Shown here in pieces: positions 15,441 through 37,124 of a stretch of 38,057 nucleotides of DNA (the first letter of the stretch is position 1; the number at the start of each line of letters is the position of its first letter). This stretch comes from Lutibacter sp. GTDB taxonomy: Bacteria > Bacteroidota > Bacteroidia > Flavobacteriales > Flavobacteriaceae. The stretch is from assembly GCF_013139515.1 (NCBI RefSeq), contig NZ_WTAR01000120.1:1-38057 (forward strand). Reading direction: 5' to 3'. A model generated the notes under the pieces. The model worked only from the letters and a program-made list of their open reading frames with translations, did not search any database and was not told the DNA's origin. Both the position numbers and the translations under genes were made by a program.

Positions 15441-15532
15441 GATGAGTTCTCGATACGCTTTGCTACTCGAACTCACGAATAAAGTTAAAACGTCACTTCG
15501 AGTGATTTTTGAAAAAAAGTGTATCGAGAAGT
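15441..15532. repeat. Nested palindromic repeat, copy 1 upstream of the GIY-YIG gene
   Basis: Outer arms TTCTCGATAC (15447-15456) and GTATCGAGAA (15521-15530) are perfect 10-base inverted repeats. Inner arms ACTCGAACT (15465-15473) and ACTTCGAGT (15495-15503) pair with one mismatch. The inner loop carries GAATAAAGTTAAAAC, which recurs in copies 2 and 3. Confidence 0.85.
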
Positions 15533-15536
15533 AATG

Positions 15537-15627
15537 ATGAGTTCTTAATATGCTGAGCTACTTGAACTGATGAATAAAGTTAAAACGTCACTTCGAGTGG
15601 TTTTTGAAAAAAATTGTATCGAGAAGT
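15537..15627. repeat. Nested palindromic repeat, copy 2 upstream of the GIY-YIG gene
   Basis: A direct repeat of copy 1 at a 96-base offset; both begin with GATGAGTTCT. The right half is conserved (GTCACTTCGAGTG at 15587-15599, GTATCGAGAAGT at 15616-15627). The left outer arm has decayed (TTCTTAATAT) and the inner left arm has one change (ACTTGAACT). It ends 16 bases before the GIY-YIG start codon. Confidence 0.85.
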
Positions 15628-15643
15628 ATTTTGAAACTAAATT

Positions 15644-15940
15644 ATGATAAAAAAAAGCTATGTATATATGCTTAAATGTTCAGATAATACTTATTATACA
15701 GGAGTTACTAGTAATTTAGATATACGATTAAGTCAACATGAATCAGGTTTTTATAAAAACAGTTATACCCATCAAAGGAGACCCGTAGAATTAGTTTTTT
15801 ATGCTGAGTTTACAGATATAACTATTGCAATTGAGAAAGAAAAACAATTAAAAAAGTGGTCTAAAGAAAAAAAAGAAGCTTTAATCAATAATGAATATGA
15901 TAGTTTAATTAATTTAGCAAAAAAGAAGTTCAAAAAGTGA
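15644..15940 (+). CDS. Small stand-alone GIY-YIG nuclease
   Basis: A 98-residue single-domain protein of the UvrC/YhbQ-like GIY-YIG superfamily. Visible motif parts are YVYMLKC at residues 6-12 (GIY equivalent), YYTGVT at 17-22 (YIG equivalent), the conserved arginine at R28 in LDIRLSQHE, and the metal-binding glutamate among E64/E66 in IEKEKQLKKW. The C-terminus is lysine-rich. There is no extra DNA-binding domain, so specificity would have to come from the fold itself or a partner. It is wrapped on both sides by copies of one palindromic repeat. Members of this family often occur in several copies in flavobacterial genomes. A role in nicking or maintaining these repeats is an attractive inference but not shown. 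Confidence 0.9.
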   Translation: MIKKSYVYMLKCSDNTYYTGVTSNLDIRLSQHESGFYKNSYTHQRRPVELVFYAEFTDITIAIEKEKQLKKWSKEKKEALINNEYDSLINLAKKKFKK

Positions 15941-15950
15941 AGTGTTCTCG

Positions 15951-16062
15951 TTCTCGATACAATTTTAAAACAAATGCTATTTGTTTTAAAATCACTCGAA
16001 CTGACGAATAAAGTTAAAACGTCACTTCGAGTGATTTTTGATGAAAAATTGTATAGAGAAGT
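15951..16062. repeat. Nested palindromic repeat, copy 3 downstream of the GIY-YIG gene
   Basis: Arms are TTCTCGATAC (15951-15960), ACTCGAACT (15994-16002), ACTTCGAGT (16024-16032) and GTATAGAGAA (16051-16060). The order and orientation match copies 1 and 2. The left interval is longer than in copy 1 because it holds an extra perfect hairpin (15962-15992). Confidence 0.85.
15962..15992. repeat. Perfect 14-bp hairpin inside repeat copy 3
   Basis: ATTTTAAAACAAAT (15962-15975) and ATTTGTTTTAAAAT (15979-15992) are exact reverse complements around a GCT loop. It lies 21 bases past the GIY-YIG stop. No T tract follows, so it is not a standard terminator. Confidence 0.85.
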
Positions 16063-16103
16063 GTTTAAAATAACATGTTGAATATTTTATAAAATTAAAA
16101 AAA

Positions 16104-36386: not shown

Positions 36387-36518
36387 GTCATTGCGACTAA
36401 AAGGAAGCAATCTGCTTCTTCAAAACACTCGTCATTGCGAGTGTAACGAAGCAATCTCATGAGTTGGAACTCCAATGTAACAGATTACTTCATTCCACTG
36501 CGTTACATTCGTAATGAC
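36387..36518. repeat. GTCATTGCGA palindromic repeats
   Basis: One nearly perfect palindrome: GTCATTGCGAGTGTAA (36431-36446) with TTACATTCGTAATGAC (36503-36518), two mismatches, both G-U compatible in RNA. Inside it, GAAGCAATCT (36448-36457) pairs with AGATTACTTC (36482-36491). A partial left copy with the same GTCATTGCGA and GAAGCAATCT blocks lies at 36387-36413. Such GTCATTGCGA...GAAGCAATCT repeats are dispersed widely in Bacteroidetes genomes. Confidence 0.8.
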
Positions 36519-36533
36519 TGGTTATTGTTAATT

Positions 36534-36731
36534 CCGTCATCCCGAACTTGATTCGGAATCTGCCCCAATCAAATTTAAATGCTACTTAGAACTCCTAAGC
36601 TACAGAGTATTGTTTCCCAGTCAGTTCGAGTGCCGAAACGTAGTGAAGGTGTATCGAGAACTTTATGGTAAGAACTTCTCGATACAATTTTATTCCGTTT
36701 CACTTCATAAAACCACTCGAAGTGACAGTGA
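36534..36731. repeat. Composite palindromic unit A of a tandem pair
   Basis: Starts with CCGTCATCCCGAACTTGATTC (a CCGAA/TTCGG hairpin; dispersed repeat type). It continues with an inverted pair of the same half-element that flanks the GIY-YIG gene: GTTCGAGTG (36624-36632) and GTATCGAGAA (36651-36660), then TTCTCGATAC (36676-36685) and CACTCGAAGTGAC (36714-36726). Confidence 0.85.
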
Positions 36732-36754
36732 CTACTGCAACCTCCTAAAACACA

Positions 36755-36952
36755 CCGTCATCCCGAACTTGATTAGGGATCTGCCCCAATCAAATTTAAA
36801 TGCTACTTAGAACTCCTAAGCTACAGAGTATTGTTTCCTAGTCAGTTCGAGTGCCGTAATGCAGTGAAGGTGTATCGAGAACTTTATGGTAAGAACTTCT
36901 CGATACAATTTTATTTCGTTTCACTTCATAAAACCACTCGAAGTGACAGTGA
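36755..36952. repeat. Composite palindromic unit B of a tandem pair
   Basis: A direct copy of unit A at a 221-base offset, separated by 23 unrelated bases. Only scattered differences are seen (for example ATTAGGGATCTG for ATTCGGAATCTG, and GTAATGCAG for GAAACGTAG), so the duplication is recent or kept uniform. Confidence 0.85.
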
Positions 36953-37124
36953 TATAACATACATATCGTTTGGTTCATGTTATTTTCAACCACAAATAAT
37001 GTGTATAAATGACCAATAATGGTGAATAACTTTAAAAACAGCACACTCCATGAACTCAATTTTTAGAAGGAAAAAAAGAATTTAGAGGTGTATATAGGGA
37101 GAGTTTTGGGTACTGAAGGCCATT

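Follow-up and report, generated by a model that had tools for sequence, protein, structure and literature searches.

The window, that is, the whole 38,057-nucleotide stretch of Lutibacter sp. DNA analyzed here, contains a small GIY-YIG nuclease gene that is enclosed by palindromic repeats and whose neighbors, as identified by eye, are an ftcD-like gene on one side and an epimerase gene on the other (Table 1). An earlier note, made from the letters alone, had described a 98-residue GIY-YIG gene between three same-orientation copies of a nested palindrome, and this description was borne out by Pfam and a repeat search. A 54-nt core is present in three copies of the same orientation, which start at 15465, 15560 and 15994 and are 93-94% identical to the first. 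The distances between gene and repeats given in that note were correct when counted on the window sequence, with 16 bases from GAGAAGT to the start codon and 10 from the stop codon to TTCTCGATAC.

Table 1. Features at the GIY-YIG locus and at the distant repeats of the window (dimer spans are approximate; z compares single-stranded DNA folding with that of shuffled sequence for the five dimers and pairs folded)
Feature	Position	Strand	Remarks
Whole insertion	15442..16061		two repeat dimers, gene and one dimer; 620 bp missing in congener G066
Repeat dimer 1	15446..15533	+	outer arms TTCTCGATAC/GTATCGAGAA, with the inner tags face to face; z -3.9
Repeat dimer 2	15541..15628	+	left outer arm decayed (TTCTTAATAT); z +0.5
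Small GIY-YIG nuclease gene	15644..15940	+	98 aa, catalytic residues intact, Pfam PF01541
Repeat dimer 3	15945..16064	+	best preserved; outer stem around side hairpins and central stem; z -7.6
Orphan half-element pair 1	36621..36740		tails facing, order as around the gene, gene-free; z -5.1
Orphan half-element pair 2	36842..36961		overlaps second copy of the 198-nt duplication; z -5.0

The copies and arms of the nested palindrome exist, but the basic repeat unit is smaller. It is a half-element in which a GTCAC/G tag is followed by TTCGAGTG, then by a variable stretch and finally by TATCGAGAA, and each nested palindrome is a dimer of two half-elements with their tags facing each other. The gene sits between tail-facing half-elements, with the tags outward. 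Recurrence of the half-element as inverted pairs about 20 kb away, also claimed in the note, was confirmed, and both pairs fold (Table 1); they overlap a 198-nt duplication (family D1, 36534-36731 and 36755-36952). The middle dimer, with its decayed left arm, folds no better than shuffled sequence, and a hairpin there was not supported. In the 2.83-Mb assembly there are 27 occurrences of the 11-mer TGTATCGAGAA and three of its reversed control. All three dimers carry a CGTC/TGTC tag within CGTCACTTCGAGTG, and ACTCGAACTGACG was found, among the window dimers, only on the left side of dimer 3. Next to the TCGATAC orphans there are further orphan palindromes with this class of tag, at 36387-36520, 36535-36562 and 36756-36783 of the window; they are of the GTCATTGCGA..GCAATCT type, plus CGTCATCCCGAACTTGATTCGGAATCTG / CGTCATCCCGAACTTGATTAGGGATCTG.

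The 98-residue protein belongs to the GIY-YIG superfamily (PF01541, E = 2.3e-16, 60.3 bits against a Pfam cut-off of 22.6). Residues Y8, Y18, G20, R28, H32 and E66 are invariant across an alignment of 24 sequences and are present in the window protein; we take Y8, Y18, R28 and E66 to be the catalytic tyrosines, arginine and glutamate of the domain. An AlphaFold model of the protein (mean pLDDT 86.2) was compared with solved structures, and the best fold matches were the UPF0213 structures 1zg2 (E 1e-5) and 1ywl (8e-4), followed by chains of the branched-DNA nuclease Slx1 with E values of about 0.01. The UPF0213 proteins are the closest solved structures by both sequence and fold; they differ from the window protein in that they are recorded as hypothetical proteins and no repeat partner is named there. 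Pfam assigned GIY-YIG only and NCBIfam assigned no family, and the search of the protein against both collections found no HUH tyrosine transposase in the window element. The genome has five small GIY-YIG genes, one of them with internal stop codons, and each adjoins a differing palindrome.

The window site was compared in 20 of 37 congeners, G076 lacking the upstream side. In congener G066, CTATTTTTG runs straight into TGTTTAAA, which constitutes an empty site, and the bounds of the insertion were read from this comparison; they essentially match those of the earlier note (15441-16062). No further ORF of at least 60 aa is present within the 620-bp insertion. A transposon with target duplication was considered, and comparison of the window insertion with G066 and the other, diverged, congeners revealed no clear target-site duplication. 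A plain intergenic region of 122-137 bp occupies the site in eight of the 20 congeners (G066, G081, G068, G060, G073, G078, G047 and G087). A window-type element is present there in G063 and G076, and G095 retains a remnant whose gene is not intact. The site is occupied by a different palindrome in G069 and G067 and by two GIY-YIG copies of another lineage, arranged in tandem, in G061; the remaining congeners differ in other ways, with 3.4 kb between the flanks in G084 and G085. Over the genus, four sets of congeners with common flanks around the window-type nuclease were distinguished (G000/G063/G076/G095, G060/G077/G081/G065, G065b/G067 and G073/G089), and the G095b and G075 copies have flanks in common with none. 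The sequence comparisons thus showed the window element as an insertion at a site empty in relatives and present at different sites in one genus. All 12 genus copies at least 69% identical to the window protein, itself counted, have window-type motifs within 300 bp. No such motifs were found within that distance of the copies at 45-54% identity (G069, G079, G085, G087 and G075b) or near the copy in G092 (68%), and some were detected at the broken copies in G075 (63%) and G095 (55%).

From the matches listed for 60 family genomes, 80 regions were taken, which cover part of the listed places with a small frame; together with the window and locus L001, these regions yielded 96 small GIY-YIG frames. 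Genes were scored for a repeat common to both 200-bp flanks at a local score of at least 18, five of the 96 being skipped because their flanks were short. A shared repeat was found at 56 of the 91 small GIY-YIG genes, the other 35 falling below the threshold, compared with 17 of 997 control genes from the same regions; the proportions were 12/360 for controls with intergenic flanks and 8/181 for short controls. The nearest motifs were GTCA upstream and TGAC downstream in 30/91 nuclease genes, against 48/997 controls and 25/360 of those with intergenic flanks.

The association extends beyond the family. A scan across phyla used one clade, type D, as the query, and the best 80 of at least 347 confirmed loci were kept. 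Among the matches listed, relatives were found in Bacteroidota, Proteobacteria, Chloroflexi, Spirochaetes, Elusimicrobia, Omnitrophota, Ignavibacteria and candidate phyla. Shared flanks were detected at 59 of these best 80 of at least 347 loci, compared with 10/443 controls, and, within the same 80, at 21 of the 34 loci whose titles do not name flavobacteria. A Gammaproteobacteria set of 30 type-D loci included two that were too short (L290 and L299); 21 of the 28 scorable loci had shared flanks, a count that becomes 19/26 minus two loci read on the wrong strand (L307 and L311). Among alphaproteobacterial genes, which were not chosen by clade, shared flanks were found in only 7 of the 21 analyzed (in the other nine of the 30 loci the motif missed the gene), and several others have a palindrome on one side only, as judged by eye. 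On sequence evidence, the association of GIY-YIG genes with repeats recurs in Proteobacteria, Chloroflexi, Spirochaetes, candidate phyla and Neisseria.

Two other lineages were noticed by eye. One adjoins tRNA genes, with duplicated parts of the tRNA and some copies in tandem (L123 9462-10361, L111 9808-10514, L113 9832-10514, L093 9830-10368 and L144 9893-10147), and resembles a homing element directed at tRNA genes. The other has its insertion site close to where NAD-dependent epimerase genes begin, at the GxxGF-IG codons, mostly with a truncated copy of the gene start before it and an intact one after (L099 4795-5124, L128 9820-10140, L106 9796-10191, L110 9923-10090 and L164, with two tandem copies).

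Flanks were labelled with seven motif types by regular expressions that were revised after reading the flanks and before tree building; the first expressions left 47/96 genes unlabelled, and the final ones labelled 57 of 88, genes shorter than 70 aa being omitted. On the protein tree, which has few columns and many weak forks, the seven repeat types required seven changes, when the minimum is six and the shuffled mean was 36.6, and none of 200 shuffles was as low. Label G alone was not clearly clustered, with 42/500 shuffles as low. The unlabelled genes include the tRNA-adjoining and epimerase-start lineages (by eye). A label-free comparison between genomes of protein similarity with flank-repeat similarity gave rho = 0.302, the largest value in 999 permutations being 0.093. 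The window type, with 10 genes, makes up one side of a branch that has support 93, and all 10 are flanked by its repeats. Genes of the same clade usually lacking flanking repeats would have spoken against the idea in the earlier note, and the opposite was observed, in 10/10 genes of the branch and 12/12 genus copies at or above 69% identity. These comparisons showed, at the level of sequence, a nearly one-to-one correspondence between repeat type and nuclease phylogeny. Since gene and flank may be inherited together, this co-diversification shows a lasting unit and not yet recognition.

Repeat number was also associated with the nuclease. In the family, TTCTCGATACA had a median of 13 copies in the nine genomes with a window-type nuclease among the matches listed and of two in the 51 others (p = 2e-5, kinship ignored). 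High numbers were also seen in genomes with no matching nuclease among the matches listed (G047, 33; G024, 22; G053, 16; G040, 12). Within the genus, the medians were 12 in 13 nuclease-positive genomes and two in 25 others (p = 4e-4, kinship ignored). The genus positives were hand-picked among the matches listed, at no less than 70% identity and 150 nt over the gene, and G092 was counted with them though no window-type motif is near its gene. For 229 genomes of Gammaproteobacteria, the pattern GTCATTCCYGCGNNNGCRGGAATCC was counted with up to two mismatches and a matching nuclease was accepted at E < 1e-20. Two or more copies were present in 33 of the 53 genomes with the nuclease and in 34 of the 176 without (p = 8e-9, kinship ignored), and the reversed control of the pattern gave no copies among the matches listed. 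At least one copy was carried by 47 of the 176 genomes without a matching nuclease, and 13 of the 53 with it had zero copies even at two mismatches. Repeats that were equally common in genomes lacking the nuclease, the other result named in the earlier note as adverse, were thus not what was found in the family, the genus or the Gammaproteobacteria.

Palindromic repeats with an unpaired CGTC or TGTC tag, the CGTC REPs, have been defined by the tag, an AT-initial stem of 8-9 bp and a loop of 4-5, with a CCA tail as a further mark; the survey by Di Nocera, De Gregorio and Rocco (2013, PMC3733652) reports them from five phyla, including Neisseria dRS3, Rickettsia RPE-4/RPE-6 and many alphaproteobacterial repeats, and states that they 'apparently lack a dedicated transposase'. 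Strict CGTC units were found beside type-D nucleases, with 135 units in 66 of the best 80 of at least 347 loci, and in 1.5% of shuffled flanks. Within these 80, a TGTC/CGTC tag was present in 131 units, an AT stem start in 127, a stem of 8-9 bp in 127 and a CCA tail in 87, and the tag was outward in 101 and inward in 34. Loops were mostly 3-4 by greedy stems, compared with the published 4-5. The stems vary and stay paired (complementarity 3.84 of 5 against 2.68 when shuffled between loci, with 18 distinct perfect stems). The repeats beside the type-D clade therefore conform to the published definition. In the family of the window, 20 of 96 genes have strict units (shuffled, 2.3%), and the other types are longer or imperfect. 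No short hairpin of the defined kind was found on the + strand between 15431 and 16100; the window palindromes have the tag but not the short hairpin and are therefore called relatives of CGTC REPs and not members. They are an elongated variant with a longer, imperfect stem-loop, outside the strict definition.

The published enzyme-less status of CGTC REPs in that survey contrasts with their position beside small GIY-YIG genes in this analysis. Taxa named there, namely Neisseriae, S. meliloti, A. lipoferum and N. aromaticivorans, carry the nuclease with shared flanking repeats. A match was found in 31 records, of which 10 were examined; eight of these have shared flanks, which were absent in those of Rhizobium tumorigenes and Photobacterium. 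The Neisseria gonorrhoeae nuclease has dRS3-like units on both sides, that of Novosphingobium aromaticivorans has a tag and hairpin on both sides with a stem that is not AT-initial, and that of Sinorhizobium meliloti has a shared flanking repeat with no strict unit. On plasmid AZO_p3 of Azospirillum lipoferum 4B, a GIY-YIG gene and CGTC repeats lie between sufB and sufC (L344 1483-1776), and records of Rhizobium, Shinella, Aeromonas and Planktothrix also have the nuclease and repeats. Three records filed as plasmids, NZ_CP119140.1, NZ_CP119142.1 and NZ_AP026896.1 (N. gonorrhoeae 2.17 Mb, A. caviae 4.94 Mb), are probably chromosomes.

REPtrons, which combine GTAG REPs with RAYT/TnpA-REP, are also among the nearest known systems. 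PMC3733652 and PMC8266576 describe a tag and hairpin, a single enzyme gene enclosed by inverted copies, enzymes specific for their repeats and many orphan repeats, and the latter also a contact of TnpA-REP with the GTAG tag. The GIY-YIG loci likewise have inverted repeats around the enzyme gene and a repeat class matched to the enzyme clade. The enzyme here is a GIY-YIG nuclease and not an HUH tyrosine transposase, so the chemistry of spread must differ, and the pair is REPtron-like in its working and not a REPtron. To our knowledge, GIY-YIG enzymes hydrolyze DNA, and we know of no strand-transfer chemistry for them. The earlier note knew of no description of GIY-YIG joined to REP-like palindromes, and none was found in the open-access literature searched. 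When the letters of the repeats were sought in paper texts, the matches listed looked like primers or chance text. Passages of PMC9465073 name a RayT gene and a GIY-YIG gene among the accessory genes of Moraxella catarrhalis and do not connect the two.

We consider it reasonably probable that small GIY-YIG nucleases and tagged palindromic repeats constitute two-part selfish elements, each clade with its own palindrome family, in which the nuclease cuts and repair spreads the repeat. The analogous nuclease-plus-repeat system suggested in the earlier note survives as a specific pair and as a likeness to REP/RAYT, but the window locus is one case among many such pairs, CGTC REPs included. The gene resides between inverted units with the GTC(A) tags mostly outward, and in the proposed mechanism the nuclease would recognize tag and hairpin on the extruded palindrome, either single strand or cruciform. 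The enzyme, with a fold nearest to UPF0213 and then Slx1, may nick or cut this structure, and repair templated by another repeat would multiply the repeat, sometimes with the gene. We infer recognition, cleavage and spread by break repair. If a structure-selective nuclease cut the extruded palindrome and another copy served as the repair template, the flanks, the co-diversification and the copy number would be accounted for.

The main rival is homing into ready-made palindromes, in which the repeats spread by other means and serve the nuclease only as a target; a palindrome that it has cut would receive a copy of the nuclease gene, and the nuclease would be a parasite of the repeats and not their engine. 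The tRNA-gene and epimerase-start lineages are flanked by duplicated target pieces (by eye), as expected of homing elements, and genomes with repeats and no matching nuclease are common, both in the family (among the matches listed) and in Gammaproteobacteria. This explanation would account for the higher repeat number with the nuclease only through survival on repeat-rich hosts, and the change of repeat type along with the nuclease clade also counts against it; we regard it as unlikely, if a serious contender. In free-standing GIY-YIG homing endonucleases, as in the window system, the site that has received the nuclease gene is related to the sequence on either side of it; the window system differs in having no intron or intein, and its flanks are palindromic multi-copy repeats. 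General background on such endonucleases is given in PMC1564403. A housekeeping role, with the enzyme resolving hairpins or cruciforms of the repeats and kept alongside them for host protection or repeat tuning, could draw on the Slx1 matches of the model. A window-type gene that is absent from many congeners and at different sites in others, and the several small GIY-YIG genes found in tandem, are unlike a housekeeping gene and make this role quite improbable. Passive association, by which intergenic DNA rich in repeats collects small mobile genes or the whole block depends on a separate transposase for its movement, would suit the several kinds of insert at the window locus in congeners and is scarcely credible given that control genes of the same regions, short and intergenic-flanked ones included, rarely have shared repeats, that repeat type tracks nuclease clade and that the insertion holds no second ORF of at least 60 aa.

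Returning to the two-part element, the same pairing with a differing repeat for each enzyme branch across many phyla makes the family a likely missing partner of a common repeat class. We propose that small GIY-YIG nucleases are the missing enzyme of the CGTC REPs, in pairs that resemble REPtrons and are based on an unrelated nuclease. The dedicated enzyme found wanting in PMC3733652 would then be supplied; that survey gave no answer as to how these repeats are mobilized. Because the enzyme is specific and intact, has one domain and co-diversifies with the repeats, the question of the mover becomes directly testable in vitro. A second, unrelated enzyme class would be added to the REP world, and genes annotated just as 'GIY-YIG nuclease family protein' would be given a function. 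More tentatively, and with rather less confidence than in the two-part element itself, it is quite possible that these nucleases drive selfish palindromes throughout bacteria, CGTC REPs and longer relatives alike, by hairpin cutting and repair copying, a transposition-like process free of a transposase. The family would then have repeatedly switched its target among palindromes, tRNA genes and epimerase starts, each time with a copy of the target as flank.

Some repeats were seen in other arrangements. The genome of the window has, at loci L018, L019, L025 and L037-L040, a longer repeat whose ends are close to ACCCGTTGTGCATTTTGA and which encloses a TCGATAC palindrome pair (by eye); several of these longer repeats are at contig ends, and they are apparently a composite MITE. 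Tandem arrays of TTCTCGATACA were observed on contigs C15, C18, C19 and C23 of genome G013, with spacings of about 180, 124, 152-154 and alternating 131/150 bp.
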